In this document: positions 1-27,775 of the stretch, piece after piece
How positions within the stretch are numbered: the stretch's first letter is position 1
How the letters are laid out: every line of letters begins with the position of its first letter
The notes under the pieces: generated by a model
Databases searched by the model: none
What the model saw: only the letters and a program-made list of their open reading frames with translations
What the model was told of the DNA's origin: nothing
Position numbers and translations under genes: made by a program
Source of the DNA: a virus
Length of the DNA: 47,126 nucleotides
Reading direction: 5' to 3' (one strand)
Virus record (IMG/VR): IMGVR_UViG_3300032523_001802
Coordinates: 1 to 47,126 of that record

Positions 1-1223
1 GATTCAAGATTGTCTGAAGTTCCTTGAGAACGGTCTAATAGGTCGTCTATAACATCCGCAAATTCTTCTTCTATACGTTTTCCCGTTGGGCTGGTTTGAC
101 TTCTGACCCCACGCCGTGGTTCGTCAGTCGGTATTCTTCCTCTTAGTCCGCCCCTATCTGACCGAAAATCTTCACTAATAAAAGTGTCGGAGGCATCTGT
201 CCTACGACCTGGTCTCATGTCTACCGGAATAGACATTCTGGCCCTAATTGCCGATTCATCCATGGCTGGTTTGAATCTTGTTGGGTCTGGCATTTCGCGC
301 CACGTTCCATCAAAAATCATTCCGTCGCCATCTACGTCACGACGCTTGTTTGGGTCGAGGACACCAGCAATAACACGCGACGCAACACCACGACCGCCTC
401 TGCCAGGCCTGTTAGGGATTGATGTTCTACGTGCCGCACCACCAATTGCACCACCGATTGCTCTACCAATTCCTTTTTGGTGAAAGTCCAAAATTTCTGA
501 TGTCTTAAAACTCATTTTCTTTCTTTTCTTACGTCTACGTCGTCTTCCAAAAAGGAACCCCGCTATAAATTCTCCTGGGAACTTTGTCTCGGTATCAGAA
601 AATGAAATGTTGGAATTAATTTGCTCAACAATTTGTTTACCAAATCTACGCTGCATCCCAGCACTAGACTTTCTGTTAAGCCTGTCAAAGTCAATACTTT
701 TAAAGTTAGAATTTGGCCTAGGGTTAAATTTATTATTTTCAAGATTAAAAGCAAGTTGGTTGAATCGGCTCTTTAAAGCAATCTCGCTACGCAAAATATC
801 GTTTTTAAATACCGCAACCTTAAATGCTATTACCAAAGGTTTCGCAGTGGTGAACTCTCCTAATGGTATGTCAGAAACAGATGGGGTTTTTGATTTAGTT
901 TCTAGAAATTCTGATTTAACAAATATAGTATTTTTGATATTTTTTGTTAAAACTTGACCCGTAATAGATTTTGTTTCCGGTAAATCACCACCGCCTATTT
1001 TGAAACCAAATTGTTTAGCCATGTTTTCTGTAAGGTCGCTAAATTCGTCAATCGACACACCATCCGGAATTTGGGAGATATCTAAACTTTTCTGGTTTGC
1101 CCATTCTGCCCATTGACAACTTTGTTCATTTAATCCAAAAAACTCAATTATGTCATTGCTTTTTACGGCAACGCCATAGTGCGTATTAGAAAGTGTGTCT
1201 TTTAGGATTGCGTATTGCTTCAT
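1..1223 (-). CDS. Large phage protein with shared DPxKRRD/DxDxDG module, truncated by window edge
   Basis: The reading frame starts at the ATG at 1223 and stays open to the left edge, giving at least 407 residues; its 3' end lies outside the window. The start overlaps the upstream stop as TAATG, which indicates translational coupling. Residues 1-230 match nothing I recognise. A strongly basic stretch follows (a run of Arg/Lys near residue 230), then Gly/Arg-rich sequence. At 290-311 comes the module DPNKRRD, acidic loop DVDGDG, IFDGTWREM, which also occurs in the 1365-aa protein and in the prohead protease fusion of this operon. The acidic loop resembles calcium-binding DxDxDG loops. Function is unknown. 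Position in the portal/protease operon suggests a virion or head-assembly protein. Confidence 0.8.
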   Translation of the reverse strand, partial: MKQYAILKDTLSNTHYGVAVKSNDIIEFFGLNEQSCQWAEWANQKSLDISQIPDGVSIDEFSDLTENMAKQFGFKIGGGDLPETKSITGQVLTKNIKNTIFVKSEFLETKSKTPSVSDIPLGEFTTAKPLVIAFKVAVFKNDILRSEIALKSRFNQLAFNLENNKFNPRPNSNFKSIDFDRLNRKSSAGMQRRFGKQIVEQINSNISFSDTETKFPGEFIAGFLFGRRRRRKKRKKMSFKTSEILDFHQKGIGRAIGGAIGGAARRTSIPNRPGRGGRGVASRVIAGVLDPNKRRDVDGDGMIFDGTWREMPDPTRFKPAMDESAIRARMSIPVDMRPGRRTDASDTFISEDFRSDRGGLRGRIPTDEPRRGVRSQTSPTGKRIEEEFADVIDDLLDRSQGTSDNLE

Positions 1224-3283: not shown

Positions 3284-3915
3284 TAACCACCACAGCACTC
3301 ACTGGGAACGTAGGGCATAGAGACTTTGACGTTCTCATTATTCTCCCCGACCATTTCCCAACTATCATCATTGCGCAGGTACTCTACGAATTTGGGCTCC
3401 ATGTCCATAAAATCCCGCAGCACCATCATGGCATGTTTTACATCCATACCGGTGACAACCGGGGATAATTCTTCTGTTTGACGCCATTGTTTAGTTGAAA
3501 AAAATTGTTGTTCGTCATCTTCACGGTCAAGTTGTTTTAATTTACCAAGTCCTCCCGGGGGGTTGATTGGCTTGTTTATTCTTCTTAAAAATTCGGCATT
3601 GGTCCAATTACGTTTTTTTAACTTGTTTTTACAGTTTTTCATTCCCGGATGGTGACACCCCTCGTTGGGCCAAACACCGGTTGTCTCGTGGTGAAGCCAG
3701 GCACAAATGTTGTTTAATGGGTACAGTTCTGGATGGTCCGCTAAAATTATTCGACACCGAGTAAAGCCACCGGGTTTATTCATTATCGGACGCCAATATC
3801 GTAAAAGTCTCTCCAAATTACCTCTTCTGGGCCCGCGCCCGCGAAGGACATCGCCAGTAATACGCTCTTGTGGGATTAACCCACCAAGTGGGTCGGCTTT
3901 GGAGTTTTGGTCCAT
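3283..3915 (-). CDS. Conserved Cys/His-rich phage protein of unknown function
   Basis: This encodes 210 aa. An ATG at 3984 would lengthen it but overlap the upstream gene by 62 bases; the ATG at 3915 lies just after that gene's stop and is preferred. Residues about 50-100 hold C-R-I-I-L, then N-I-C-A-W-L-H-H, W-P-N-E-G-C-H-H-P-G and N-C-K. These closely spaced Cys and His residues could bind zinc. The rest is rich in Lys/Arg and Asp/Glu. The protein ends in E-C-C-G-G, and its stop overlaps the next start as TAATG. I recall similar CAWLHH-containing proteins in actinophage head operons but cannot name a function. Confidence 0.75.
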   Translation of the reverse strand: MDQNSKADPLGGLIPQERITGDVLRGRGPRRGNLERLLRYWRPIMNKPGGFTRCRIILADHPELYPLNNICAWLHHETTGVWPNEGCHHPGMKNCKNKLKKRNWTNAEFLRRINKPINPPGGLGKLKQLDREDDEQQFFSTKQWRQTEELSPVVTGMDVKHAMMVLRDFMDMEPKFVEYLRNDDSWEMVGENNENVKVSMPYVPSECCGG

Positions 3916-3922
3916 ATTTGAA

Positions 3923-4327
3923 TTATGTTTCCAATTCGCTTGATTTTTGCGAGAGCAGTTGTTGTCCGTACCATTCTGCAACATCGTCTTTGTCTACAAG
4001 TGTACCATCTTCATATTTTTGCCAAGCGTCAGCATTGCGTTCTGTATAAATTAAACTCTCGATACCTGAACGTAAAGGGTTGACACGATTTCTAATAATT
4101 CTTTCAGGTATTTGTGATGCTTGATTCAATAATTTGCTCAATGCTTTGTCAGAATCCTCTTCAGAAATTTTGTTTGCCATTACTTGGATTTTGTGCGAGA
4201 AAACTAAGTCACCCCAATAATCTCGATTGTCGTAAGGCCAGATATTGCCAAAAACCCGTATCCATTTTTTTAACCATTCCGGAGCATCGTTATAGCCGTT
4301 TATTTGTTCTGGTTTTAAATAAGCCAT
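3923..4327 (-). CDS. Small hypothetical protein of the head operon
   Basis: This encodes 134 aa, starting 13 bases inside the 3' end of the 1365-aa gene. The N-terminus is aromatic-rich (W-L-K-K-W-I-R-V-F, then D-Y-W-G-D-L). The centre is helical and charged, and the C-terminus is hydrophilic. It has no signal peptide, membrane segment or recognised motif. The tight packing between two large minus-strand genes supports it as real, probably a virion or assembly factor. Confidence 0.7.
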   Translation of the reverse strand: MAYLKPEQINGYNDAPEWLKKWIRVFGNIWPYDNRDYWGDLVFSHKIQVMANKISEEDSDKALSKLLNQASQIPERIIRNRVNPLRSGIESLIYTERNADAWQKYEDGTLVDKDDVAEWYGQQLLSQKSSELET

Positions 4328-7300
4328 CTGTCCTCTCTCTGTTTTAATGACTCGGTTTGTAATGATTTAATCTCCGGAAGTTTTTTTTCATCTGGACGCA
4401 TCCATTGAATAAGTTTTGTTAATGAATTTAGTTCTTCCTCGGTTAGGTTTCTACCATCGGTCAAAAACGGAATACCTGTTTCTAACAGAAGATTTAGTTC
4501 GGCATGTATTTCGGCCCACTCTAACCGTTTACCCAAAGTCATCAGTCTCAATGCACCAATCAAATGCCCCCCTTGTGCTGTCCTGTAATCATGCATTGCA
4601 TAACTTGGCTCACCAAGGTGACCACCCCACCTTTGTACTAAATTTAGAATTGTTTCAATTTCGTTTTCTGACAAGTCATCCCAGGAGAAGTAATTGAGCA
4701 TTTCTTTAATCAAAGGCCCAACAGTCTTAGGACCAAAACTAGTGCTTTCTTGCGCAGCAACAAACTTGGTCACAAAATCAATTACATAATTGTTGTCCAT
4801 ATTTCTATTTTGAAATTCTGGCCCAACCACCTGTGCAATCCGGTACATAAAGTCATTTCTAAACATCTCTTCGGTGGCACCATCGGTGCTCATAAATTGT
4901 GGTATTAATTCGGTCAATGACTGTATGAGGTTGCGCTTAGTCGTGTCGCTAAGACTTATATTTCCTTGCTTTAATGTTTTCTCTAAACTGTCGACTATGC
5001 CTTCGGCAAATTTGTCATCGTGTGATAGGGGTTCGAGAACGCGCTTCAATTGCATTTGCAGTGTGTCGTCAAAAATAGCCTTTCTCACCAATTTTTTTTC
5101 ATTAGCATCCAGCAATTTATAAAATTCAGAAAGATTGCCTTTTTTGGATTTGTCTTTAAGGACAGCATTTGATTCTATTAGTTTTGCCAAATTATACATA
5201 CCCAAATTAGGCATTGCACTTAAATAACTAGAGACCGTGTGATTTTTGGTGTCAGTATTTTCTCCGACAGTATTGGTTCTTAGCCGCCCATATGCGTTTT
5301 TTAGTATTTTGAAAGCACCTCTTGCAGAAATCAATTCAATGTCTTTTCGAGCATCGTTTGACGGCTTTACCAGAGGCTTGGTTTGACCCTGCACGGCATT
5401 GGCATAATGTCCAAGATGGGACAGTGCGTACGAATTAATGCTTCTAATAAAAGCCTTATTATCTTCCTCGTTAAAAAATTTTGGTAATCCATATTTTGCC
5501 ACCGTCGGTAAAATATCTGTAACATTTGCACCATATATAAGATTTGACTTATTTTCACCCGGACTCATAACAGCAATTGCGGAATTATTCGAACCGCGTA
5601 TTTCAATCGATGCGTCTGTTCCTAGTATGAGACCTTGTGGGTAATAAGTGTCTAAGTTGTGTGGTGAACCGGACATTCGTGTTGGTTTATCTAACCCAAA
5701 TTGACCAATGATTTGTTCCGTCGCAATAATTTTTAATAAATTTTCAAGAGTTAAATCACCACTTGTTGGAGTTAGTAGTTTTAATCTTTCTTGTATGTTT
5801 GAATAGTCGCCAATTGATGGGTTGTCTTGCAAAAACTTAATTGCGCTTCTATTTCTTTCCACTATTTTTTTAATAGTTGATTCTGATACCTGTACTGGCA
5901 AACTAGTGACTGGGTCAATAATTGATTCTTTTAACTTATGTTTATGTAATTCAACTACTTCTTTAAGTTGCTCATTGGCGGCAGAGGCAATGCCCGGATT
6001 TGAGTTAGTACGGTTTTTCTGTAGGGCTTCAACAAGTAGTCCAAGAATTGAATTTTTTCTAAGAACATTCAATTCTGTTGGACTGCCTGTATTGATATCT
6101 AAAGGCGTGCTTATATTGCCAAAAATTTGAATCAAACCAAGAATAGCCAGTTCTGTTTCGGTATCAATTAAGCGGGGGACGATTTCTTCATCTTCGGCAT
6201 TTAAGTGCAAGTGCTTAAATAGCCAAGGAAGAAGCATTTTATCGCTCAGGTCTGGGTTGTTTAAATAATCATATTCTTTTTGTTCATCTGGGGTCAACGT
6301 GGCGCTTTTGCTTCTAAGTTCAAGTATTCTTTTTTGTCTTTCTTCCGAAAGTTTTTTATATACGTCGTTTGATTTTGCTATTCCGTGAAGAAAGTGACCA
6401 TTTTCGTGGTACGTGGTTGCCGTTGTGGATATATTGTTTAATTGTTTTAAAAAATCTTGGGTTATTTCGTCTGTCAAGACAGATACATCACGTAATTTAA
6501 TTTCTAAATCTTGTAAATCTTTTTGCAAAATACTAAATTCTTCGCTCAAAGACAACTCAACCGTAGACTCTTTTAGTTTTGTTTGTTTTTTAATTATTCT
6601 GTCTATTTGTTTTTGTATGTTTTTTTTGTCTTTGACGTCACTAAGTTCTATTAATTCTCTAGCCACAAGTATTCGATTAGAAATCGACGACATTGAAAAA
6701 TATTGGTCAGTTAATGTCCCCGAGTTTCTTATGCCAGATATGCTTGAGGAGACCTTCCCGTCGGTTTGACTATCTCTATACATCATTCTAACAATTTCGG
6801 GACGGGTTTTATTTACAGGTAAATTTTGTTGCCGATTTTTTTCTAAGTCGTCCATATGGAATATCGAAGGCAAAAAATCTAACCCAAAAAACATGTTTGG
6901 CATATTTGGGTCCACCCCAACGTAACCCAACACTTCTCCCTGTCCTGCGACTTGGAAAAGTTCCAACGTCATCACCTGGGTTAATTCTTTAACGTGTTCT
7001 TTTTGGTCCATTCGAATTAATGGTACGAACATTTGCATATATGTTTGGTAATTTGTCCAATTGACTGAACCTGCTTTTTCTATTGATATTAGTTTCCAGG
7101 AAATATCGCCATTTGGGTCTACATTAATATACGGTATTATTGGGGTTTTGTCGTCAAGTATTTGGTCTCTTAGAAAGTCGGGCATCAAATCTATTAATTC
7201 TTCAAGCGAAGATATCCCGCCGCTTGACAATTGTTTAATGTATTTGTCGACAAATGATTTGGGCGCCCTGTATGAAGTGGTGCCAGATATGTAATGGACC

Positions 7301-8412
7301 ACACGTTGTGTAATTGTCTGGTTTTGCTGGATGAGCCTGAGATGGCTTAAAAACAAAGTTTTTTCCGAATCAGATAGTTGGTCATTTTCGTCTCTTCGGC
7401 TTCCGTCTGGGTTGTACCATAGAAATTCAAAAAATGTATGTTTCCTTTTTTTCCCAGCATCTCTGGGCAAGTATGCGTTTCTTTCTGTTACTGCATTAGG
7501 ATAGATAGATGCAAGTATTTCCCTAGCCTGCTTTGCGTTTTTAATTTCGTCAACACCAAAAACTTTAAGAATATCGTCTTCTTTTTTTCTTAGACGTTTT
7601 AAAATATCATTAATTGAAACACCTTTAAGGTGGTCCCTAAACCAATTTAATATTTCTTGTTTACCGGCACCTGGATTGGTTAATTTCAATAGTTGTAATA
7701 ATCTTTTTTTTCGGTTTCCCTGCATGTCTGTCCACTGAGGCAATGACTCACCGGGAGGAAGTTTCCTTGGCTGGTCGTCTACCGTGGCAATTTGTGATTC
7801 GGGTAGGCCGTCTACCGCAACTTGCTCACCGCTGGTAGATGAACGCAATCCGCGTGGAGGGGCTGGCATTTCTCGTATTGTGCCGTCAAATATCATTCCG
7901 TCGTTGTTGCCGTCACGGCGTTTTTGTGGGTCAAGAACCCCCTCAACCTCTCGAAAAACTCTTTTACCTATTTTTCGATTTGGCCCAATAGCGCGTCCAA
8001 TCCTGCGACCCATTTGCCCGAGAATCTTTTTTTCAAGCGTTTGAGAAGATAAAGCAATTTTGAAATCTAGGGCCCTATTTGCTATCTGATTTATAATTTG
8101 CGTTCTGTTTAGAACGTCGTTATTGACGACAATCGAATCAATTAGGTCATCGTCTGGGGCAAGACTTTTGGTTATAAAAATTGATTGCCATTTTCTTTTT
8201 TCTATATTTGTTGGTTTATTCCAAAGAAATTTATGAAATTTACTATGTTGCATTTTGTTAATATTAGATTTTTTACTAACAAATTCCCAAAAATTAATAA
8301 CTTTAATATTTCCGACATCATCAACAAGAACGCCGTCATTATTGTTCGAATTTGCGTCTAATACATAATAAATTTTAGTATTATTAGATTTACCTACTAA
8401 AACAGATTTCAT
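4315..8412 (-). CDS. Giant virion-operon protein with HExxH metallopeptidase motif and shared DPxKRRD module
   Basis: This encodes 1365 aa and starts by ATGA overlap with the 2187-aa gene. Residues 130-160 are basic (G-R-R-I-G-R-A-I-G). The shared module follows at 161-182: DPQKRRD, loop DGNNDG, IFDGTIREM, then P-A-P-P-R-G-L-R-S. The long middle region is helical and charged, with a coiled-coil-like stretch near 600-650. At 669-673 lies H-E-N-G-H in the context T-Y-H-E-N-G-H-F-L-H, which fits the zinc-binding helix of HExxH metallopeptidases; I could not fix the third ligand. About 690 further residues follow with no recognised domain. An internal virion enzyme or large capsid-associated protein is a plausible inference. 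Activity is unproven. Confidence 0.8.
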   Translation of the reverse strand: MKSVLVGKSNNTKIYYVLDANSNNNDGVLVDDVGNIKVINFWEFVSKKSNINKMQHSKFHKFLWNKPTNIEKRKWQSIFITKSLAPDDDLIDSIVVNNDVLNRTQIINQIANRALDFKIALSSQTLEKKILGQMGRRIGRAIGPNRKIGKRVFREVEGVLDPQKRRDGNNDGMIFDGTIREMPAPPRGLRSSTSGEQVAVDGLPESQIATVDDQPRKLPPGESLPQWTDMQGNRKKRLLQLLKLTNPGAGKQEILNWFRDHLKGVSINDILKRLRKKEDDILKVFGVDEIKNAKQAREILASIYPNAVTERNAYLPRDAGKKRKHTFFEFLWYNPDGSRRDENDQLSDSEKTLFLSHLRLIQQNQTITQRVVHYISGTTSYRAPKSFVDKYIKQLSSGGISSLEELIDLMPDFLRDQILDDKTPIIPYINVDPNGDISWKLISIEKAGSVNWTNYQTYMQMFVPLIRMDQKEHVKELTQVMTLELFQVAGQGEVLGYVGVDPNMPNMFFGLDFLPSIFHMDDLEKNRQQNLPVNKTRPEIVRMMYRDSQTDGKVSSSISGIRNSGTLTDQYFSMSSISNRILVARELIELSDVKDKKNIQKQIDRIIKKQTKLKESTVELSLSEEFSILQKDLQDLEIKLRDVSVLTDEITQDFLKQLNNISTTATTYHENGHFLHGIAKSNDVYKKLSEERQKRILELRSKSATLTPDEQKEYDYLNNPDLSDKMLLPWLFKHLHLNAEDEEIVPRLIDTETELAILGLIQIFGNISTPLDINTGSPTELNVLRKNSILGLLVEALQKNRTNSNPGIASAANEQLKEVVELHKHKLKESIIDPVTSLPVQVSESTIKKIVERNRSAIKFLQDNPSIGDYSNIQERLKLLTPTSGDLTLENLLKIIATEQIIGQFGLDKPTRMSGSPHNLDTYYPQGLILGTDASIEIRGSNNSAIAVMSPGENKSNLIYGANVTDILPTVAKYGLPKFFNEEDNKAFIRSINSYALSHLGHYANAVQGQTKPLVKPSNDARKDIELISARGAFKILKNAYGRLRTNTVGENTDTKNHTVSSYLSAMPNLGMYNLAKLIESNAVLKDKSKKGNLSEFYKLLDANEKKLVRKAIFDDTLQMQLKRVLEPLSHDDKFAEGIVDSLEKTLKQGNISLSDTTKRNLIQSLTELIPQFMSTDGATEEMFRNDFMYRIAQVVGPEFQNRNMDNNYVIDFVTKFVAAQESTSFGPKTVGPLIKEMLNYFSWDDLSENEIETILNLVQRWGGHLGEPSYAMHDYRTAQGGHLIGALRLMTLGKRLEWAEIHAELNLLLETGIPFLTDGRNLTEEELNSLTKLIQWMRPDEKKLPEIKSLQTESLKQREDRWLI

Positions 8413-11400
8413 TGAGCGTCAACTTTTTCTTTAGATGAATCCTTAAAAGTTGATTTATTGTTTCTAATTTTTTCTCTGAGTGTCCTAATTTGTTCATTTG
8501 TGGCAACTGGCTTACCAAGACCTTTTAATATTTCTCTTACATCGTTTGCCATCCTGTCATTAAGGAGGTCATCAATACTCATTCCTTCTAGGTAGTTTTT
8601 GTAGGTTTTTGGGTCGTCGTAATCAAGCCCATCATCATTAGGGAAAATAATTCTTGGACCACCACCACTACGCACGGATGTATTTATTCGATTAGAAAAT
8701 GCTATTCGTGATTCTCTTTGTTTTTTAAGTTGCTGAACATATATAATCTTCTTCTTTAATTCCTGAGCGGCTTTTACTTCTTCTGGTGTTTTAGGTTTTA
8801 AAATAATGTTTTCAGCATTAATTAAATCGTTGTTCACGGACATTTGTGACAAGATTTTTGTGGCTAGAGCCAAATTAGGTTCCGTAAGTTTTTCTTCTAT
8901 GTTTCGTTTAACATAGTCTGCGCTTAGGTGTATTTCTTCAACTTCATTCAATTTAAATCCACCGGCAATAATTGCTTCGGAAAAATGTCGGTTTCCTTTA
9001 TCGTCTTTAGTAATATCCCCATAGCCGTTTTTGCCGATAGATGCATTTAGGAGGTTAACAATTCTTTGTTCTGTGGTTAGTTTGGTTTTCTTGGAGTCGG
9101 GAGATTCTTCGTTGTCTATCCACCTATTTCTAAGCATTGCTATAAGAAGTTGTTCATCACTGTCTTCGTTGTCTAAACTGATTGGAGTTCTTGCTCCATC
9201 AAGCGAGTCACCAAGTGTCATAAGTGTTCGGTGTGCTATTTGTGGCTTAAGCACAATTTCTGTTTGCCCTCGTTCTTTTGGAAGTGCATTTAATGAATCT
9301 TTTGCACCGTATTCACCTATAGACATTAATTGAGGAAGATATTCTGGTTTAATTTTTGCTGGATTAATCCCTCTTTTTTCAAAATTGTCTTTCTTCTTTG
9401 CAATTTCTAATTCCGCCTTCATTGCACGTTTTTTAATTTCGTCATTATGTAGCAAATAGCCGCGAACTGGTTGAATATCCGCTTCCAAATTCTCAGGTAT
9501 ACCCAATCTCAATACGTAACGAGAATTTAACTCAATATCATTATTGGTATCTCCTAAATTGGCTACCCATAAACCACTATTGATAAAATTGTCAAAAGGG
9601 CTTTCTGGTGTTGGCGAGTTCATATCGTTGTCGTTAAATCTAAAGCGTGGACGTTTGTCTATGCCTTTAACATATTCCCTTGATGCTTTTACTAAGATTT
9701 TTTTAAATTCATCTTCCGTCATTGATTTAAGACGTTTTAAAACTTCTGGGAAAATAGTTTTTATTACATCTTTGTCTTTTTTGACTGATGATAGAATTTT
9801 TTTAATTTCTTTATCAATGGCGACAATTGACTCTTGGTCTGATTCAAATCTGGTGTCATTTGATAACCTAGTCGGACCATTAGGGTCTGTGGCAAGTACC
9901 GTTGTGGCACCAGGTAATGCCTCGCCCCATTTTGCTCCGCTGTCTTCTAGTCTTTGAAGAATTTGTTCAGAATTTTGATTAATAGTTGTTGGTATTTCAA
10001 GTACTGTTTTACTGGTTTTGGGTACAAACAAACTCGGACCACCGGTTAGTTCTGCGCTTCTCCGTGCTTTGATTACGCTCAATGCTCGTTGTGCCTCAAT
10101 TTTATGAGAACCACGGTTATTGGGATTACTGATAATTTCTTGTAATTTATTTTCAAGTTTCAACAAAGATTTCATCGGTGTATTTTGTTCAACCAATCGA
10201 CCAACAAGAGTGCCATCTTCTTTTTTGCCTTCAATTTTAATTTTGCCAGGCGCAAGAAGCATTGACGCGATTGAGCCACGTGGGTCAGGTGTCCCCGAAG
10301 AAGGTCTTTTACGGCTAAATATACGAGATGGCTTTGCTGGTGATTTGTCTTTATTAAGCATTTTGATAAACGGTAACATTGCGTAGATAAAAGCCCCCAT
10401 GGGTAATTCGTTTGTTGTTGCTGTTGGGGTTTTTGATTTTTTTGTTGGTTTTGCGCTTTTAACTCTTGGCCCTAATTGTTCTAACAACGGTGAAATAATG
10501 TCGCTTAGCGCTCGTCGGAATCTCGATGCGTCGCGTTCATACACGTAATTTTCTAAATTTCCCGACACTGGCGATGTCCCCAACTCTGTACCTGCAAACA
10601 GAAACCAAGCCATCCACGCCTCGGCAACTTTTTCTGTTTCACTTGAAAGACCATACAGCGAAACCGATGGGGAATTTGTAAATGAGTCTGGCATTCCTGG
10701 AGATGTTGATTGAAATATCCCTCGGTCTGATGCCTCGCCCTGTCGCGCTCTAATAACCTCTCTAATTAGTGGACGCTCGGTTCTAATGTTGTCGCCTGTA
10801 CTTCTTTGAGTAAAGTCTAAATAATGACCAATTTCGTGAACCGAAACACCGTAGGCCAGTCTTTGTCGGAATTGGTCATCTACCGATTGCCAATATTCCA
10901 AATCTGGAGAATCTTCTCCGGGAAAAATATATTCAAAATAATTAGGGATACCTAATCGTTGAAACAAATCCTGTACGTTTTCTGCTCTTGTGCCTTTACC
11001 CTGAACTTTATCGTACCAACTATCTTGAATATTGGCTCCAGCAAGTTCACCCAAACTAATACTTATTTTTGACCTAGTGTCATTGTCGCCAAATTTTGTT
11101 TGAGAAAACCAATTTTGCCTTACATTGAATTCGCCTTGATTTTGATTTAACAGCATTCGTTCAAGAGAAATTTCCAACTTATCTCTTCCTACAAGAGACT
11201 TGCTGTCTATGTTTGCCAAAACGTCGTCGATTGCTTGTAACGACCCATAAATAACAGTTTGTTGTTTTCTTCCTACCTCTCCATCCATAGACAAAGACTT
11301 GTCTGAAACGTTTACTGGTACGCCGTGTTTCTCACTAAAATATTTATTTATTTCTTTACTGGTTTTGCCAAATCTTTGTACCAACACATCCACGCTTGCC

Positions 11401-14400
11401 ATTGTTGGTGTGCCATCTTCGTTCCTGCCATTTACCAACAATCTTGGTCCTCTGTCTAATTTTTCTTTAGTTGTCCGTTCGGGCAATTTAAGGCCGGTAG
11501 GGGTTCTTGATGCAAGACCTAAATTCCTGATTCTTTCTGCTTCTACTTGACGGTTTTCTTCTTCTGCTATTTGGTCCGCTGTGGGTCTGCCCCCTCTGGG
11601 TTTTTTCCCAAATTTTTTTCTGCGCGTTATTTTGTTTTCTTCGTTTCTTCGGAACAATTCCTCAACATCGTCGTCCGCTAATTGTCCAGTTCCAAAATCG
11701 CGGTCGCCGTCAGGTTTACGCATTCCATCACCCCTGCGGTAATAAGGGTATTTTGGTTCAACATCTAAATCGTAGTCAGGTTTAATCACTCCACCATCCT
11801 TGCCGGACCCAGGATATTTTGGTGCAAAATCAAAATCAGGGATTCCACGAGACCCTTTGGGGACCTTGACTATCATTTTTTGATTTTGTCTTGGAAAATC
11901 ATCTGTTTCATATTTTTGTTTGTTTAGTGCAATACCTGTACGCACAAAATTAACAAATTCCAAAAATGTTACACGGTTTGGATTTTTGCTTTGTTTTATG
12001 TTTCCAATATCAACAACAACAGCAATGTCTTCTTCTAGTGGATTATTTTCCATTAAATCTAAAATAGGAATAATATCCTCTTCGAGTTTTTTGTCAAAAG
12101 TTTTTCCTTGACTAAGTCCATCACGGATATTGCCACTATCGTCAAGTTCGGCAATCAATAAACCATCTAAGTTTATAATTTTTGCATTATTTTGTTCAGG
12201 AAGTTCTTCTGACATTGCTTTTTTTTGTTTTTCGGTAGCCTTTAACATTATATTTTTTCTAATTTCAGAAAACCGAGATACTATACTTTCTTTACTTTTA
12301 TGGGACTCTGTTGAATCCATAATAGAAATTGGGTCATCGTTGCCGATTAAGCGTTTTTGGCGTTCTGTATAACTCTCGCCGGTTATGTCGCCTTTTTTTC
12401 GTTTTTTTCGTTTTCCGCTAAATGAGATTCCACGCTCTTTCTCGTTAAATTCATCGAATGTATTAAGTTTTAATCTCCCATGTTCGTCAAGTGAATTTTT
12501 GAACTTATGAACTTGGTCCATGGGACCATTGATGTGTTCGAGCACTTTTTTAATTTCGTCAGTTGGCTGTATTAGTCCCATTTTTACAGCGGCATTTAAT
12601 TCAGCAATCGCTTCAGCAAACATAAGCGCACGTTGTCCATTGATGGCTTCTTCTAGTTTTTGATTCCCGTCCAATACTTCACCAATACTATTTAAGGCCA
12701 TATTTAATGCGCTTAGTCTTTGACTTTCTTCGGTTGTAATAAAACCAGCATTCATTGCATCTTCCAAAATGGTTGCTTCCCTATTTAGGTTTTCTGCCGC
12801 AGCAAGTCTTTGGCTTGGTGGAAGCGACAATAATTCTGACAAAATATTCATTGCGTTCAAATGCGATTGTGGGTATGCCCCTGCCATACCGTCCGTAACA
12901 AGAGCCTCAACCATTGTCCCCATTTCCGCAAAAGCGGAAGCCATTACTCGTGGGTCACTGAGAACTGATTCTAGGCTCATTAATGAATTTCTACCACCTA
13001 TTAATTCGTCTACCAAATTCAACACCTCGGCATTTGTCATACCTTTTAGGCGTCTGCCGCTTGGGTCATGAGATATCAAATAAGCCAATAATGCATATTG
13101 TTTAGCGTGAGTTAATTCGTGCTGAAAGATAAACATTGAACGACCAAGTCGCCCAGCATGTTCTTCCATGATAATGTTAAGGTGCTTTCCTTTTTGCGTT
13201 GCTGAATCTGAAGAATTTGTTTGTTTCAAAAACTCATTAAGAAGACGTTTCCTGGTATCGGCATCAACAACCCTGGAGATTGCTTGTATTTGTTCAATTT
13301 CTAATCCCTTACCGTCACCCTCATACATTCTCCACTCACCGTTTTTTGGCGCTGATGGTGGATTGTCCATCATCATCCCAATCGGGTTAAACGCCATTGC
13401 TAATTTGCCGTCTTCTGTTGGTATAACCATAGCCTCAACGTTTTTGTTAGAAGAGTCCATTGGGTCCATCAGTACAAATCTTTGTATTAATTCAACATCT
13501 ACTGGATTCTCTTTGTGCTCTGCAACGATAGACATAAGAAAGCCGTGCTCTGATGCCCAATAGTCGTTCATTCTTTCGATAACTTTAGTAGCAACTTTTT
13601 TTTGCCCAGTGCTCAACTTTGATAAATCGTTATTTAAAACAGCGTTAGAAATGTTCTTAACAATTTCATCAGTATCGCCTTCAAGGTCGGCGAATAATTC
13701 ATCAAGTTCTTTTTCGGAAAAATGCTCAGTTGGGTTACCTAGAACTATTTCTACTGCTGTTTGAACAACTCCTTTTGTATGAAGTGCAACTTTTTCTTCC
13801 ATCGATAGAGATTGGTTATTGGTTAAATCAACGCCCCACAAAAGACCGTCAAAATCAATGTCCCAACCAAGTTTTTGTAATTTTTCAATTGCCGACATTA
13901 ATCCGGTTGTCAAACTCTGTGGGTCATTTTCGTCAACATTTATTCCAAGTTCCGTTAAATAATCAAGCGCTCTTTTGATTTGACTATTCATGCCCTGGAC
14001 CATGCCCGCTTTTTGTTCTGCAAGTTTTACTATTCGTTCTCTTTCTTCCATGTCTATATTTGGATAATCTCGGGCCAATTGCGCTCTCACAGTTTCTGCG
14101 TAGACAATTGGTTTTATGGTAGAGACAATTGAAAGAATTTTGCCGTCTGGTCCAAGAATATGGGGGATAATTAAATTTTCTGACGGGGGCAATATGAGAC
14201 CGCTAGTATTCGGAACGATTAAACCACTATCTCGACGCGCAGTTTGTTCAATATTGTTAAGCATTGCTAAATGCGACATTTGTTCACGACCAAATTGAAC
14301 CGCTTCGCTTAAAAGCCTTTTTGCTACTGCTGGCAAAAAATTAAAACAATTGGAACCAACCGAATCTGTAAATTGGTTTGCTGCAGGCACCCCTGGCGGA

Positions 14401-14972
14401 CATCTTAGTTTTCCAAGCGCATCAACGATTAAACCCAATTTTGATGCAGCCCTAGCACCAATATCGCCTCCTGGGACCAATGTCCCCAAAGATGGTCCTA
14501 ATGCCTTTTTTTCAAAACCGCCCGTTCGTGGATTTGGTTTAGAGTCTTTGAATCTATATCCAGGTTTGCTTTTATTTAAAGCAATTAGGTTTTTGACTGT
14601 TTTTGAAACGTCTTTGGGTTTGAGGGTTTTCGGCGGCGTAATCCATCCAACATTTGGTACGTCATCACCAGAGACCCTATTGTTTTTCATAATCCACGGA
14701 ACAAATACTTTGCCCGGTGACCATTTGCCGTTGGGGTCAAATACCGCTACACCATATCTTTTTATTGGACCACTGGCCTTTTTCCTCTTAGCCTTATTGT
14801 CTGCGTTTGGGTTTGCTTTTGGTTTTAGGGCTTTTGTCGATAACTCTGGCGAAAAGTCAAGTGTAAAATTTTGTTTTTTTAAAAAATTAAGCGCGCGCGA
14901 ATCTATTGTTTCGACTGGGTTAAAACGCATACTCTCATAAGAGCGCGTGATTTTTAATTTTTTACCCGTCAT
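8409..14972 (-). CDS. Giant (2187 aa) virion-operon protein with two HExxH metallopeptidase motifs
   Basis: I chose the ATG at 14972 because GGAG lies six bases upstream; an ATG at 14984 has a poorer site. The N-terminal 150 residues are basic. At about residue 191 there is C-P-P-G, F-T-D and C-F, as in the 686-aa protein. H-E-L-T-H lies at 618-622 (F-I-F-Q-H-E-L-T-H-A-K). A second motif, H-E-I-G-H, lies at 1379-1383 and is followed within about 70 residues by E-T-E-K-V-A-E-A-W, which could supply the third zinc ligand as in gluzincin-like peptidases. Low-complexity charged linkers separate these parts. A later region (R-G-Y-L-L-H, then E-I-V-L-K-P and G-D-S-L) resembles a segment I recall from actinophage giant proteins. 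At over 2000 aa it is among the largest genes here. Likely a virion protein; proteolysis is inferred only. Confidence 0.82.
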   Translation of the reverse strand: MTGKKLKITRSYESMRFNPVETIDSRALNFLKKQNFTLDFSPELSTKALKPKANPNADNKAKRKKASGPIKRYGVAVFDPNGKWSPGKVFVPWIMKNNRVSGDDVPNVGWITPPKTLKPKDVSKTVKNLIALNKSKPGYRFKDSKPNPRTGGFEKKALGPSLGTLVPGGDIGARAASKLGLIVDALGKLRCPPGVPAANQFTDSVGSNCFNFLPAVAKRLLSEAVQFGREQMSHLAMLNNIEQTARRDSGLIVPNTSGLILPPSENLIIPHILGPDGKILSIVSTIKPIVYAETVRAQLARDYPNIDMEERERIVKLAEQKAGMVQGMNSQIKRALDYLTELGINVDENDPQSLTTGLMSAIEKLQKLGWDIDFDGLLWGVDLTNNQSLSMEEKVALHTKGVVQTAVEIVLGNPTEHFSEKELDELFADLEGDTDEIVKNISNAVLNNDLSKLSTGQKKVATKVIERMNDYWASEHGFLMSIVAEHKENPVDVELIQRFVLMDPMDSSNKNVEAMVIPTEDGKLAMAFNPIGMMMDNPPSAPKNGEWRMYEGDGKGLEIEQIQAISRVVDADTRKRLLNEFLKQTNSSDSATQKGKHLNIIMEEHAGRLGRSMFIFQHELTHAKQYALLAYLISHDPSGRRLKGMTNAEVLNLVDELIGGRNSLMSLESVLSDPRVMASAFAEMGTMVEALVTDGMAGAYPQSHLNAMNILSELLSLPPSQRLAAAENLNREATILEDAMNAGFITTEESQRLSALNMALNSIGEVLDGNQKLEEAINGQRALMFAEAIAELNAAVKMGLIQPTDEIKKVLEHINGPMDQVHKFKNSLDEHGRLKLNTFDEFNEKERGISFSGKRKKRKKGDITGESYTERQKRLIGNDDPISIMDSTESHKSKESIVSRFSEIRKNIMLKATEKQKKAMSEELPEQNNAKIINLDGLLIAELDDSGNIRDGLSQGKTFDKKLEEDIIPILDLMENNPLEEDIAVVVDIGNIKQSKNPNRVTFLEFVNFVRTGIALNKQKYETDDFPRQNQKMIVKVPKGSRGIPDFDFAPKYPGSGKDGGVIKPDYDLDVEPKYPYYRRGDGMRKPDGDRDFGTGQLADDDVEELFRRNEENKITRRKKFGKKPRGGRPTADQIAEEENRQVEAERIRNLGLASRTPTGLKLPERTTKEKLDRGPRLLVNGRNEDGTPTMASVDVLVQRFGKTSKEINKYFSEKHGVPVNVSDKSLSMDGEVGRKQQTVIYGSLQAIDDVLANIDSKSLVGRDKLEISLERMLLNQNQGEFNVRQNWFSQTKFGDNDTRSKISISLGELAGANIQDSWYDKVQGKGTRAENVQDLFQRLGIPNYFEYIFPGEDSPDLEYWQSVDDQFRQRLAYGVSVHEIGHYLDFTQRSTGDNIRTERPLIREVIRARQGEASDRGIFQSTSPGMPDSFTNSPSVSLYGLSSETEKVAEAWMAWFLFAGTELGTSPVSGNLENYVYERDASRFRRALSDIISPLLEQLGPRVKSAKPTKKSKTPTATTNELPMGAFIYAMLPFIKMLNKDKSPAKPSRIFSRKRPSSGTPDPRGSIASMLLAPGKIKIEGKKEDGTLVGRLVEQNTPMKSLLKLENKLQEIISNPNNRGSHKIEAQRALSVIKARRSAELTGGPSLFVPKTSKTVLEIPTTINQNSEQILQRLEDSGAKWGEALPGATTVLATDPNGPTRLSNDTRFESDQESIVAIDKEIKKILSSVKKDKDVIKTIFPEVLKRLKSMTEDEFKKILVKASREYVKGIDKRPRFRFNDNDMNSPTPESPFDNFINSGLWVANLGDTNNDIELNSRYVLRLGIPENLEADIQPVRGYLLHNDEIKKRAMKAELEIAKKKDNFEKRGINPAKIKPEYLPQLMSIGEYGAKDSLNALPKERGQTEIVLKPQIAHRTLMTLGDSLDGARTPISLDNEDSDEQLLIAMLRNRWIDNEESPDSKKTKLTTEQRIVNLLNASIGKNGYGDITKDDKGNRHFSEAIIAGGFKLNEVEEIHLSADYVKRNIEEKLTEPNLALATKILSQMSVNNDLINAENIILKPKTPEEVKAAQELKKKIIYVQQLKKQRESRIAFSNRINTSVRSGGGPRIIFPNDDGLDYDDPKTYKNYLEGMSIDDLLNDRMANDVREILKGLGKPVATNEQIRTLREKIRNNKSTFKDSSKEKVDAQ

Positions 14973-15007
14973 TGCGGGCTCCATTTTCTAAAAGTTGAAA
15001 ATTCTGT

Positions 15008-16423
<1,416 letters not shown>

Positions 16424-16589
16424 AATGCTGACTCCTTGATAGTTGTGAATAGACACGTAACCCTCCGCTCGTTAGAACGGCACGTATCTACACTGTTATA
16501 TGAAATTACTAATTTACAAATTATACTTCACAGGCTGTTCTGCGGCGGAACTATTCCATTTTTAGTTATTATCATCACTTATTTAAATT
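16424..16589. other. Intergenic leader between protease gene and 471-aa gene
   Basis: This 166-base gap is the longest in the minus-strand operon. Read on the minus strand it holds a GTTC/GAAC inverted repeat near 16537-16551, a TATAAT hexamer at 16525-16520 without a convincing -35 partner, and the ribosome-binding site AAGGAG just upstream of 16423. It could carry a second promoter to raise expression of the acidic protein, as expected for a scaffold-like product. No terminator with a U-tract is visible. Confidence 0.4.
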
Positions 16590-19500
16590 TTAGTTCTTTT
16601 TTATTTTTGGGGCAATTGGTGGTGTAGTTTTTTCTATAAACGTTGACATTGCTGCACTGGAAATTTTTTCTAACAGTTCTGCAAAAATTTCACCCCTAGA
16701 ACCAGCAGTACTGACCTGCCTATCAACAACACTCATTACGGCATCAAGAATTTGGTCAGCCTCACTAGCCGTAATCGTTAAGGAACCAGCATTTGTTCGT
16801 TTTGGGCCAAGTTTCCCAGACTCTTGACGACTTAGTATCGATTTAAGCAAATCTAAACCGTCTTTTGTTTTTTTGTCTGTTGCTTTAGAAATTTCTTTTT
16901 GTAGTGATGACTCAATCTTGTTCCACCATGTGGCTTCAGCGGTAATTTCGGTTCTGGGTTCTTTTGTTGTTGATGTACGTTGTGTTGAGCGAAGCCCTGT
17001 TGCGCCCTGTTTTCTTCTTGAGCGAGCCGAAAGATAGTTTGTTGCTGACCTAAGCCCCCTGGCTGGCGATACGGAGTATCTGATATTACTATCTTCATCA
17101 GGGCCAGAGTAACTCATGGCGGACATATCAAATAATGGGTCTAGTGCTCTGGTGACTTCCGATTCAGGAGACTCAATTGACTCCCTTTCAGCACGGCGTG
17201 CTGCCATGCTTGATGCGACCCTTTCTAGATATAGTTTGATTTTGGCTTCTTCTGGTGGCGCGTTGTTTGCTGTTACGTCTTTATTCATTTCTGTCAAAAG
17301 TTTACTGATTGCGTCTTCGGCTTCCTGAAGTGCTTCGATTGTCTCTTTTTCTGCCAACGCGGTATTGACATCATTTAAGGTTTGTTTAATTTCATCAACC
17401 AAAGACTTCCTGATTGCTCCTCTTTTTTGCTCAACATTGTCTAGGTGTTGACGCAATCTTTCTGTTACAAGCAAAAACTTAGAAGGGTCATCTAGTTGCG
17501 TAATCCTCACGCCCGATTCAGGAGAGTCAGCGTCCTGTTCATTGCTTGGTTTTCTTGTGGTTGGAGGTTTTGTTTCCTGTGCTTCAAGTTCAACCCGAAA
17601 CGCTTCTCGTCTCCTATTTCTAATATTACGTTTATCTTCATTATCAATTTCAATAGAAATTTTGTCAAGTTGATTAGTCCGAACCAATTCGTCAAGACCC
17701 AATTTTGGCGCCTCAGTAATTAACCATTCTTCCTTATCGGTCAAAGACATAAGATTCCAATTATTTGGTTTTATCTCAGACAACTTTTTACGGACCACTT
17801 TTTCACCGCTTGGAGTCACGATAGTTGTCACGTTTGTTTTTGAACCAACTTTTCGGCCACCACCGCCCGCCCTAGACCTAACTGGTTTGCCTTCTTTAAC
17901 ACTCCCTAAAACTTTTTTAAGGTATTCGTCTTTAAAATTTGCGCTTTCGAGGTCTGCTAATTCTTTGATAGCGCCATCCAGTATTGACTGAGGCATTTCA
18001 AATCCGGCATCGTTTTTGTATTGGCTATTTATTAAAAATGTACGTATTTGATGAAGTGCCGTATTTTCCGGATTTGGCATGCCTGAATCTTTTAAGATTT
18101 TCTGAATTGCATCCGTCGTTTTTTTTGATTCACTTCTAGTAAACGATGCTTTGATTGTTTTGCGCACGGGGTCATTGGGTCCAATAGATGAACGCAGTCC
18201 GCGCACAGGGGCGGCCATTTCTCTCCACGTACCGTCAAAAATTAAACCATCGTTGTCCACGTCTCTTCTTTTACGTGGGTCCTGTATGCCTTCGATTCTT
18301 GAAAGCGCGCCTCTAGCGCGCCTTACTTTTCCCGAACCACCACCGCCACCCAGAGCGCGACCAATTCTTCGACCGATACCTTTGGTTGCTGTTTCTATTG
18401 CATTATAAGCATCTTCACCAATTTCTGACGTAATCATAATTCCGTCTTCAGTAACAAGTGTTTCTACGCGATGATAATCAAAAACTGGGTCCAATAATTG
18501 TTTTGTTTTGAAAGCAAGTTCTGGGTCACACTTAACAATAAGGCTTGATTTTGTTTGAACTTCAGTACCAACGATGTCTTGTAGGGTCTGGATTACGTTC
18601 TTTAGTTTGTCCATTGTTCTATTGTTAATTGCACGTCCAACTTTTGTTTCTTGGTTGATTTCGTCAAGCAATATATCAATCTCGTCCATCGCTGATTTTT
18701 CATAGTTTTTGGGCATTACTGTTCCAAAAACAATACTTGGATTTTCTGGATTTTTAGGGGCCGAATATGCGAGAGCGGGAATCGATGGGACATTTTGTGG
18801 TCGTGGGGTTGGGGTTGCCATTTGTTGACCAATCGGTTCTGGTTTTCCAAACATAAATTGGTTTCCGTCAAAATAATAACCCAACCTGAAAATACCCCTA
18901 CCTGGTTTATTAAAGACAACTGATGAATCGGTTGCTCTCATGACTTCAATAGGTCCGCCAGTTCTATTAACTAGTTCCTGTTTTAGTGCGGAAGTTCGTT
19001 CATCAGAAAGAGGCATCGCGATTCCTTGTGAAAAAGGGTCTCGTGGTTCTTGTGCTTCTTCTGGCTTCGGAGTAGCGGTGGGCATTATTTGGTATTGACC
19101 AGAGGGCATCCCCATACCGTAGGCATGATTTTTTTCTTCTTCGCTTTTAACGGAAATTGTGCCAGTTAATTGATTTGCTCCATGCAAAACAGGGCTAACC
19201 TCGTAAAGTTCAACTTCCCTCAAAACGTTTGCCTGTCGGGTGTTGTCGTAAATGGCATCAAGTGTCTTGTAACCAATTGACCATTCTTGTTCTTCGCCAA
19301 AAAAAGCAATATTAGCAAACGCTTCTTTCCCTTTTTCTGAATTTAGATTGAATTGAACTTTTGCGAATAGGCCACCAATGTTGGCTGCCTTCATTTTGGC
19401 TGGAAGTCTTGGGTCGTTAGGTGGAACTTCGTAAATTTCAAGAACTTTACCGATTGGGTCATTCCAGTTATGTCCCCAAACAACACGTGGTTTTCTACGC

Positions 19501-19752: not shown

Positions 19753-21735
19753 CTAACTTGCGAACTGCCATGCTCTTCTGGCTTCCTGTTCGGCAATTTC
19801 GTAAATATCGTTACCTAAAAGACCACTAAAGGCGGTTACGCATTCAGCCCTAAAAACAATATTTCTATTTTCGGCATCAATAACTGGCAGTGAACCAAGA
19901 TATGCCATATTGATAAGTGAATATGTATTTTGGTTAACTTCTTTTATTCTCAGCATTTGGGCATCAAGTTGAGCGTCAACATCTATCTGTTTTAAACTCT
20001 TACTAGAAATTTTTGTTTTGCCCGCTTCTTGAATTATTGTTGACAATATTGGTCGGATATCTTCATCCATTTGTTTATCCCAAATATCGGTAATAAAAAT
20101 AGTGCCGACATCTAGATTGCCCAAGACAAGAGATTTTTTGGCTTTAATACCTGACGCTTTTTCCATCACCACTCGTTGTTGACGTTCAATCGTTCGCTCA
20201 AGACTTCTATTCAAGATTTCAGTCCATCTTTGAAGTGCTAGGTTTTCGTTCTTGGTTTCAATTCCACCAAATGCATTTGCTGAAAGTTGACCTTCGGGGA
20301 CTGGGGCTGCCGCTGTTTGTGGTGCAGCGCCAGCCTCTGCGGCTAATGCGCCAGACATAGTGTCAGGTGCTGGTTGTTGTTGTGGGGCTAAAGGACTTGG
20401 CATACTTCCATCTGGGGCCATTTGCATTTCTGGTGGCATCCCTGGCGCACCTGGCGCACCTGGCATCCCCGGAACTGCCGCCTGTGGTTGTTCCATTTCT
20501 TTTTCGGTGTTAGCAATTGGAGTAAGGTTTGGATTCATGAGTAGGGAGTCCGCCAAATCACTCTTAACTGTTTTTCTACCAGTTGCGGTTCTGTATTCGT
20601 TAGGGCTAACTAACCCAACATTGAATTCATCCATAAAATAACGAGTGCGTTCCTGTTTGTAAAGAATCAAGATTGGAACATTGCTTGTATCAAAATCAAC
20701 ATAATTGACATCGTCGAGTTCGTCAAAGGCTCTTGCTAGTAAATCCAAATGCGGGAGCATTGTTTCGTTCCAAAAAACCCGATGTTCTTCTGCGGCATTA
20801 GAAAACGTTCGTCCAGAAGCATTGCCAATAACTGATTCAGGTACTCCAAAAGCGGCAAGAATTTCTTCTTTCTGGATTTGTCTCATCTGCACATAAGACG
20901 CATCTCTTGGGGTTGCTGATGTGTCTACAAAATCAACACCATCATCTGCGGCAATTACTGTTGTTGCTCCAGCGCGGGTTAAATTCCCCCTGAACCTATT
21001 ACGTAACTCATCTTTGTCGTCTTCGTCAATTTCTCCCTTGACGACAAGGATGCCACCCGGACGACCATCGTTTAGTAAATAGTTTCTATTATAAACTTTT
21101 GCAAGATTTTCAATTTCAATTGCGATACCGGCAGATTCCATGGGCGTTAATGATAGGTATGGGTCTAGCGGGTGAGGTCTTCTAATCCACAAAACATCAT
21201 TTGGCTTTAGAATTATTTTTTCGCCAGTAGGCATTGCAACCTCAAAACCAGAAACAAAAGTTTTAGGGTCAGGGATTGGTGCCGTGTGTTGTGGTGGCAA
21301 TAGGTTTAATGCCATAATTCTTCCGTCGCGCCCGCGTATTTTTTCTATAAATGCCCCACGAGAACTCATCAGTAGTTGTGAAGTAAGGCGATATCTAAAA
21401 ATAAAAGCGTTTTCACCAATATTGCTTTTTGTATTAAGAATTTCAATTAATGGATTATCTAACGCTCTTCGACCTATCAATATTTCGCCGTCACGTGAAT
21501 TTTCTTTTCTTAAGATGATTGGGAGTCTTGCCTGATTGCCAGCAATTGCATCTATACACCGTGTTACCCAAGTAACTTTTTGAAAACCCTCCCTGTATGC
21601 CCTTTCAATATCCCACATATCGCGATATGGTTTTCCAGCAAATCCTGGATTTTGGGCGACTGGAGCACCAGGCCCAATACTCTTAATCTCATACGGCTGC
21701 TTACCCGACTTGTTATTAAATGAATTCCACGCCAT
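19753..21735 (-). CDS. Portal protein (HK97-type) with Pro/Gly/Ala-rich linker and extra C-terminal domain
   Basis: This encodes 660 aa and starts two bases after the stop of the 59-aa membrane protein gene. Residues about 40-400 match HK97-type portals: W-V-T-R-C-I-D-A-I-A-G, the N-L-L-P-P stretch, D-V-L-W-I-R-R, S-L-T-P-M-E-S-A, and the helix with I-L-A-A-F-G-V-P-E-S-V-I-G. The portal forms the dodecameric ring through which DNA enters and leaves. Residues about 414-490 are a low-complexity linker rich in Pro, Gly, Ala, Met and Gln. A further 170-residue helical domain follows, so the protein is longer than the usual 400-500 aa. It lies directly upstream of the prohead protease, as is usual, while the terminase is on the opposite strand. 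Confidence 0.93.
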   Translation of the reverse strand: MAWNSFNNKSGKQPYEIKSIGPGAPVAQNPGFAGKPYRDMWDIERAYREGFQKVTWVTRCIDAIAGNQARLPIILRKENSRDGEILIGRRALDNPLIEILNTKSNIGENAFIFRYRLTSQLLMSSRGAFIEKIRGRDGRIMALNLLPPQHTAPIPDPKTFVSGFEVAMPTGEKIILKPNDVLWIRRPHPLDPYLSLTPMESAGIAIEIENLAKVYNRNYLLNDGRPGGILVVKGEIDEDDKDELRNRFRGNLTRAGATTVIAADDGVDFVDTSATPRDASYVQMRQIQKEEILAAFGVPESVIGNASGRTFSNAAEEHRVFWNETMLPHLDLLARAFDELDDVNYVDFDTSNVPILILYKQERTRYFMDEFNVGLVSPNEYRTATGRKTVKSDLADSLLMNPNLTPIANTEKEMEQPQAAVPGMPGAPGAPGMPPEMQMAPDGSMPSPLAPQQQPAPDTMSGALAAEAGAAPQTAAAPVPEGQLSANAFGGIETKNENLALQRWTEILNRSLERTIERQQRVVMEKASGIKAKKSLVLGNLDVGTIFITDIWDKQMDEDIRPILSTIIQEAGKTKISSKSLKQIDVDAQLDAQMLRIKEVNQNTYSLINMAYLGSLPVIDAENRNIVFRAECVTAFSGLLGNDIYEIAEQEARRAWQFAS

Positions 21736-26974: not shown

Positions 26975-27775
26975 ATGGTAGAGAATATCCACCGTTCGCT
27001 AAAAGGTTTAATAGTTTCAGTTGACTCGTTATTGAATCTTGACAACAATCCAAGAAAAGGCAATATTGACGCAATTGCTGCATCGTATAAAGAGTTTGGG
27101 CAAATTAAACCCATAGTTGCGAAAAAAAACGAAGATGGTACATCTACAGTGATTGCTGGAAACCACCAATTAATGGCTGCCAAAAAACTTGGTTGGGAAA
27201 AAATTGCATGTATTTTTCTTGAAGGTGACGACAAACGCGCAATTGCGTTTGCGTTAGCCGACAATAGAACCATGGAGTTGGGTTATACCGATGATGATTT
27301 ATTGCATCAAATGCTGGTTGATGTCTCTAGTGACTATGGTTCGCTATGGGACAATTTGGGTTGGGACGAATTTGAAATAGCGGCTATTGACGAAAAAGCA
27401 ACACGCAAAGAAGTTAATTCATCAAATAATGATTATTTTACACCAACGATTATTGACCCACTAACGTCTGCATTAATAGAAAAAACAACCGAAGAATTAA
27501 AAAACTTAGTGAAAACTGACGAAGACGACGGCAAGTCAAAAATTATGGCCGATGGTTCTTTGGACCAAAACGATATAGCAATTAGGGGCTCGACTATTGC
27601 TTTACCCAATTCCGCACCACAAGCAGTTGTCCAATACACGATTGTTTTTGACAATCCACAGCAACAAGCAAAATGGTACGACTTTGTTCGGTGGCTGAGA
27701 AGTAATCCAAGCATTGATGGCAACACAACAGCAGAACGCTTGATGAATTTTGTTGATGAACATTGTGAAATTTGA
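26975..27775 (+). CDS. ParB-like nuclease-domain protein (first of two)
   Basis: This encodes 266 aa with AGGTGTAGG upstream. Residues 1-110 match the ParB/sulfiredoxin fold: N-N-P-R-K-G, F-G-Q-I-K-P-I-V, V-I-A-G-N-H-Q-L-M-A-A-K-K-L-G, and A-L-A-D-N-R. The C-terminal 60 residues form a separate domain of the Y-T-I-V-F-D-N-P-Q-Q-Q type. It sits immediately upstream of a PAPS-reductase-like gene. ParB-fold proteins paired with such enzymes are known as DndB-like or IbrB/IbrA-like sets. Likely a DNA-binding or nucleotide-hydrolysing partner rather than a plasmid partition protein, since no ParA is present. Confidence 0.87.
   Translation: MVENIHRSLKGLIVSVDSLLNLDNNPRKGNIDAIAASYKEFGQIKPIVAKKNEDGTSTVIAGNHQLMAAKKLGWEKIACIFLEGDDKRAIAFALADNRTMELGYTDDDLLHQMLVDVSSDYGSLWDNLGWDEFEIAAIDEKATRKEVNSSNNDYFTPTIIDPLTSALIEKTTEELKNLVKTDEDDGKSKIMADGSLDQNDIAIRGSTIALPNSAPQAVVQYTIVFDNPQQQAKWYDFVRWLRSNPSIDGNTTAERLMNFVDEHCEI

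Follow-up and report, generated by a model that had tools for sequence, protein, structure and literature searches.

Why would a phage encode, beside its portal and prohead protease, two giant proteins that carry three HExxH motifs, and do these motifs mark zinc-peptidase-like domains that process the head or that are delivered into the host? The window, i.e., the whole stretch of DNA analysed here, corresponds to a linear virus record in IMG/VR with a length of 47,126 bases. Its minus-strand set encodes the portal, a prohead protease (S78), an acidic protein, the two giants (GIANT-A and GIANT-B), two small genes, a 691-aa protein, and a 407-aa protein whose frame is open (Table 1). The plus-strand set comprises the terminase, PD-(D/E)XK nuclease, ParB-like, and PAPS-reductase-like genes, followed by putative tail genes, which, judging from their sequence and from the gene order of phage DalanDe, we take to encode sheath, tube, tape measure, and baseplate. 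The genes with ParB_N and PAPS-reductase domains lie side by side (26975-28918, plus strand).

The minus-strand genes had been called a head operon in an earlier note on this DNA, and the label was borne out by matches of the portal to PF04860 (1e-51) and of the prohead protease to PF04586 and phrog_80. By their coordinates, the GIANT-A and GIANT-B genes share 4 bases (8409-8412), as would be expected under coupled translation. When the major capsid proteins of cultured relatives were compared with the minus-strand proteins of the window, there was no match except a weak one of 45 residues. Because the capsid gene in relatives sits after the end of this head operon, that of the window phage is probably located off the contig, past its truncated left end.

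All three HExxH motifs are present as the earlier note had claimed, HELTH and HEIGH in GIANT-A and HENGH at residue 669 of the 1365-aa frame of GIANT-B. Because the 2187-aa numbering used previously begins 4 codons downstream of the first ATG of the 2191-aa frame of GIANT-A, its HELTH 618 and HEIGH 1379 become 622 and 1383 here.

Table 1. Coordinates of the genes, domains, motifs, and modules discussed, in positions of the window.
Feature	Position	Strand	Basis
Portal protein	19753..21735	-	PF04860 1.4e-51
Prohead serine protease, N-terminal S78 domain and long extension, 1019 aa	16590..19649	-	phrog_80 6e-28 at residues 3-174; PF04586
DxDxDG module copy in prohead-protease protein	18186..18296	-	sequence similarity
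GIANT-A, 2191 aa, two zincin-like domains	8409..14984	-	open frame
GIANT-A N-terminal module, residues 1-250, with RCPPGVPAANQFTDSVGSNC	14235..14984	-	alignment A1
GIANT-A zincin-like domain 1, about residues 430-830	12495..13697	-	alignment A4 and model
HELTH, motif 1, residues 622-626	13107..13121	-	HExxH in slot, 43/45 distinct giants
E791, probable third zinc ligand of domain 1	12612..12614	-	invariant 45/45; inside predicted helix 345-372
GIANT-A zincin-like domain 2, about residues 1190-1530	10395..11417	-	alignment A5 and model
HEIGH, motif 2, residues 1383-1387, with D1390	10824..10838	-	A5 conservation
E1451 and E1455 (ExxAEAW), candidate third ligands of domain 2	10620..10634	-	conserved in A5
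GIANT-A C-terminal region, about residues 1563-2183	8436..10298	-	homologous in several relatives
GIANT-B, 1365 aa, zincin-like domain 3	4315..8412	-	open frame
GIANT-B N-terminal module, residues 1-196	7825..8412	-	alignment with relatives
DxDxDG module in GIANT-B (KRRDGNNDGMIFDGTIREMPAPP)	7843..7923	-	similar to copies in two other operon genes
HENGH, motif 3, residues 669-673	6394..6408	-	HExxH invariant in 14/14 aligned sequences
EIHAEL, residues 1301-1306, candidate third-ligand helix of domain 3	4495..4512	-	conserved Exx[A/S]E[L/I]
DxDxDG module copy in left-end protein (407+ aa)	276..395	-	sequence similarity

Domains 1 and 2 of GIANT-A

Scans of viral contigs drew a blank when the query was a single sequence from the window (GIANT-A, domain 2, or GIANT-B), whereas relatives were found with the portal (97 candidates confirmed, 80 retained) and with a profile of alignment A1, which covers the N-terminal module of GIANT-A in 15 sequences and has 17 invariant columns, mostly around RCPPGTPAANQFTD...C. 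For this module, 281 IMG/VR candidate stretches were confirmed by tblastn and 80 of the 281 were retained (L171-L250). GIANT-A relatives were present in 20 of the 40 IMG/VR records searched, and a tblastn search of GIANT-A against 50,697 phage records gave no match. None of the 15 sequences of A1 matched PHROGs, and the A1 profile, when run against genomes, found only two contigs (one Phycisphaerae MAG), which were not counted as host evidence.

The position of motif 1 is fixed, after the conserved N-terminal module. Among the 45 distinct IMG/VR giants running far enough, 43 have an HExxH 250-560 residues past the Cys motif, and 41 of those 43 have Gln three residues beyond it. Across alignment A4 (45 sequences, mean column identity 16%), H622, E623, H626, E791, and one Gly are invariant, and Q629 and another Gly are nearly so. 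HExxH is absent from the motif-1 slot of L184. The GIANT-A homologue of L203 has HEVGAH there, i.e., the HEXXXH form, and an active-site variant of this type has been described among polyvalent MPTase domains (PMC5512222).

The minimal zincin core consists of an N-terminal helix, three strands, an HExxH helix, and a Glu helix (PMC5512222). Our model of GIANT-A spans residues 430-1545 (mean pLDDT 62.5, pTM 0.48; model numbering is residue minus 429) and has these elements in this order in both domains, whose modelled secondary structure agrees with the polyvalent MPTase core of that study. Domain 1 is predicted with high confidence to have the zincin layout (helix 30-63, strands 71-76, 89-93, and 99-103, HExxH helix 173-209, and Glu helix 345-372), its block having pLDDT values mostly of 80-96. 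For domain 2, the same layout is predicted with moderate confidence (helix 806-828, strands 839-846, 855-861, and 874-881, HExxH helix 933-967, and Glu helix 1020-1034), the pLDDT of its Glu helix being about 50-60. A comparison of the profiles of the two domains gives a weak match in which their HExxH motifs coincide (hhalign 61%, E 8e-5).

Alignment A5 (8 sequences) comprises the window and seven relatives, L180, L186, L187, L190, L191, L194, and L202, which carry [VI]HExGHxxD and then, where the sequence extends, a conserved ExxAEAxxxWFLF helix. HExGHxxD is invariant in all 8, and ExxAEA is found in all seven sequences reaching that far. An Asp three residues past HExxH, as D1390 is, marks one phage-type clade of polyvalent MPTases (PMC5512222), and the Glu helix aligns over 25 columns with zincin-like proteins of cultured Gordonia and Brevibacterium phages (hhalign 84%, E 7e-6). 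In the window giant, domain 2 comes after residue 1075 and ahead of the C-terminal region; in L180, L187, L191, and L202, it follows that region. In the sister L171 (record G002), whose portal is 85% identical to that of the window and whose giant has ends 55% and 44% identical to the window's, the interval of domain 2 holds a different sequence without HExxH. By eye, this replacing stretch (residues 1061-1640 of L171) resembles a second copy of GIANT-A 1563-2183 (YGD...LRPEV..RT...GDS).

Domain 3 of GIANT-B and searches of known families

GIANT-B had a match in 22 of the 40 records searched, some of the matches being to the shared DxDxDG module only. Its N-terminal 186 aa are common to the next gene of many relatives, and in several of these the counterpart has 143-185 aa, with little beyond the N-terminal module. 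The HExxH of motif 3 is kept in 13 of 13 homologues (14 sequences including the window), and Exx[A/S]E[L/I], 630 residues past HENGH, is found in all 12 sequences extending there. Although the GIANT-B model is poor (mean pLDDT 49.2), HENGH is predicted to lie within a long helix (pLDDT about 72-79). Judged from these two conserved elements of its sequence, domain 3 is a fair candidate for a zinc-peptidase-like domain.

The earlier proposal that the motifs mark zinc-peptidase-like domains is thus well supported for motifs 1 and 2, where an invariant HExxH is accompanied by a downstream Glu (E791 in domain 1, ExxAEA in domain 2) and by the zincin layout of the model, and only fairly for motif 3, which is conserved but poorly modelled. 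A downstream Glu-rich helix had been noticed for at least the second motif; ExxAEA confirms it, and motif 1 has one too. Conservation of the His and Glu residues in homologues had been named as a test of the proposal, and HExxH proved to be conserved for all three motifs. The structure prediction and fold comparison that had also been suggested yielded the zincin layout of domains 1 and 2, a poor model of GIANT-B, and no significant fold match.

Known families are little help in classifying these domains. Neither giant had a Pfam match over the cut-off, nor did either match PHROGs, a search that covered the two whole giants and alignment A1. Among 50 + 14 homologous fragments, Pfam gave scattered single-member matches, none common to two members and none to a convincing zincin family; one fragment matched PF15887, a putative zinc metallopeptidase, with an E of 0.04 in a mode without displayed cut-offs. 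PF18818 (MPTase-PolyVal) was absent from the Pfam matches both of the window giants and of these fragments, and hhalign comparison with the PF18818-type domains of relatives gave 5% for domain 1 and 27%, with HE aligned, for domain 2. A PDB sequence search with profiles of domains 1 and 2 returned no credible match. Fold searches of PDB and BFVD with the 1116- and 1200-residue models found nothing significant, and no solved metallopeptidase in PDB matched either model at E <= 0.001, long multi-domain queries being a weak test.

Polyvalent proteins and cultured relatives

The giants resemble polyvalent proteins (Iyer et al. 2017, PMC5512222) in being very large (2191 and 1365 aa) and encoded beside virion (late) genes, here those of the portal and prohead protease, in having one or more domains with HExxH and a Glu helix at varying positions, and in two details of the site, namely the Asp of domain 2 and the HEXXXH-type variant of L203. 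They differ in that domains 1-3 match no Pfam model, domain 1 does not match the MPTase-PolyVal profile, and no second known enzyme domain was found: the only enzyme domains recognised in the window giants are zincin-like, and ArdC-N, absent from them by Pfam, was seen in the protease polyprotein of the relative L022. The earlier note had held that it is rare for a phage to have several such domains next to its portal and prohead protease. For this kind of phage, the claim is not supported: MPTase domains, 1-5 per protein, occur in about 36% of published polyvalent proteins (PMC5512222), the portal and protease genes of DalanDe enclose the genes of two HEIGH proteins, and most relatives of the window phage have at least one. 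Another parallel is gp50, the virion RNA polymerase of phage N4, a giant multi-domain protein that is ejected and has a conserved HExxH subdomain in its C-terminal, polymerase-regulating domain (PMC12633501). Unlike the giants, gp50 contains an RNA polymerase and belongs to a short-tailed phage with Gram-negative hosts, and the likeness is one of description.

The nearest cultured relatives of the window phage infect actinobacteria. The portals of DalanDe, GMA6, and Cantare are about 39-44% identical to that of the window, and all three phages have zincin-like proteins between portal and prohead protease, i.e., at the same locus. These proteins, annotated as hypothetical (DalanDe gp21 and gp22 and GMA6 orf14 from Gordonia phages, and Cantare gp11 from a Brevibacterium phage), combine HE[IL]GH with a downstream N-x-x-E-x-x-AETWA helix, as in the kind of site found in the window, but they are much shorter than the giants (742-1040 aa), and only their Glu helix aligns by profile with domain 2. 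GMA6 orf14 has, in addition to HELGH and the Glu helix, an HNH domain that is extra as compared with the window giants; its neighbour is annotated as an ADP-ribosyltransferase. GMA6 virions have been analysed by mass spectrometry, with S5 Table of that paper as the source (PMC4524720).

In L022, one open frame (6539-16429) contains S78, which comes first, ArdcN (3e-26), and MPTase-PolyVal (3e-42), with Sigma70_r4 above and WYL just below the cut-off. Similar frames occur in L011, L017, L018, and L019, these being prohead protease frames of 2000-3300 aa; that of L022 is the only one domain-tested, and the other contigs show an HExxHW[TS] motif (HELMHWTG-type). In the polyprotein of these relatives, the prohead protease occupies the N-terminus, whereas the assemblin-like peptidases of polyvalent proteins are reported to be always C-terminal (PMC5512222). 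Because the S78/ArdcN/MPTase-PolyVal frame of L022 and the HNH/zincin combination of GMA6 orf14 are hallmarks of polyvalent proteins, we place the giants among these, a label that for the window's own proteins is an analogy drawn from their relatives.

Possible roles and shared modules

On balance, we favour the view that the giants are polyvalent-type proteins of a contractile-tailed phage, made with the head and probably packed into the virion, with domain 1 as the core peptidase and domain 2 as a mobile accessory. We infer packaging, ejection, zinc binding, and cleavage for these proteins, and the roles that the earlier note had considered, i.e., packaging and delivery or the processing of head proteins, are consistent with the locus and with the polyvalent literature (PMC5512222). 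The conserved N-terminal module of each giant may help bring the protein into the prohead. Domain 1 is assigned the core function because almost all homologues have it, and in the same position; its most likely substrates would be the giant that carries it or the partners of that giant in the head, at about the time of assembly or ejection. We regard domain 2 as accessory because it is optional and occurs at two different positions in the chain, and domain 3 because genes that retain only the N-terminal module lack it; both would more likely have accessory roles, perhaps the cleavage of host or defence proteins once delivered.

Were all three domains purely assembly factors, they would be peptidases that process scaffold, capsid, or the giants themselves in the prohead alongside S78, with nothing delivered to the host. 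The locus between the protease and (in relatives) the major capsid protein would suit such a role, as would the near universality of domain 1 and the example of P1 DdrB, which carries an MPTase domain and is processed before packaging (PMC5512222). However, neither domain 2 nor domain 3 is present throughout, and the former is mobile in the chain, a pattern more in keeping with accessory cargo than with a step essential to assembly. We consider a role confined to assembly unlikely. The domains may instead have kept a zincin-like fold and metal site without being peptidases, as structural or regulatory domains of ejection proteins; this may hold for the C1 domain of N4, whose ejected polymerase has its HExxH subdomain in a regulatory region (PMC12633501), and protease activity is known for none of the families considered here. 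Such a loss of catalysis is quite improbable given that the catalytic Glu of HExxH, and not only the histidines, is invariant in 45 and 14 divergent sequences.

It is scarcely credible that the motifs are chance or compositional matches in large helical proteins. Long proteins do contain HExxH at random, and the domains of the window match no curated family, but composition-preserving shuffles lead one to expect only 0.02 HExxH for GIANT-A (2191 aa) and 0.03 for GIANT-B (1365 aa), and the motifs are conserved in 45, 8, and 14 homologues (motifs 1, 2, and 3, respectively). For the slot that corresponds to motif 1, the number expected from composition is 0.005 HExxH per protein, as compared with one in each of 43 of the 45 distinct giants. 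For motifs 1 and 2, shuffles and conservation together rule out a chance origin.

The giants and their conserved sites fit a known phage strategy, in which large multi-domain proteins are packed in the virion for delivery or processing, in forms not yet recognised by Pfam. The analysis adds three zincin-like families that Pfam misses, in an uncultured phage group with 281 relatives of the N-terminal module in IMG/VR, and it shows peptidase domains moved and lost between related phages. Because cultured Gordonia and Brevibacterium phages have similar sites at the same locus, packaging, and action on the head as against the host, are testable in laboratory phages.

The protease protein, GIANT-B, and the left-end protein have in common a segment that ends in DxDxDGxxxDGTxRE, the window copies being 55-73% identical over the stretches that align. 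Among 20 copies from 8 genomes, a small hand-picked set chosen by eye and compared without a significance test, mean identity over the 26-residue core was 64% between different genes of one genome, 53% for the same gene between genomes, and 34% for the same gene across two clades. This likeness within genomes, in so small and hand-picked a set, suggests a common partner, and the module might bind calcium as a loop, serve as a docking tag, or mark a protease site. We put forward, as a tentative model only, that the DxDxDG and CPxGxxxxxxFTD...C modules recurring across the operon genes would all be read by one phage-specific partner (the prohead or the prohead protease), with the peptidase and other domains behind them being gained, lost, and moved. 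The greater likeness of DxDxDG copies within a genome than of the same gene across two clades would be expected if one such partner reads them all.

In the 691-aa protein (window 1223-3298, minus strand), RCPEGYQYGGRFTDNQFSTC resembles the Cys module of GIANT-A, and the same pair is also found in most relatives examined. Other large proteins of the relatives include one of 2861 aa with three HExGH sites and pentapeptide repeats (PF00805, 3e-21; L144:3988-12570, minus strand, record G023) and one of 2543 aa with KTSC domains (PF13619, 5e-13; L146:6123-13751, minus strand, record G025). Two further relatives (L053:1899-2924 and L059:1897-2895) encode, on the portal strand and about 7 kb before the portal gene, a small protein in which HETAH is followed downstream by EEDWAESF and which is itself a zincin-like candidate.
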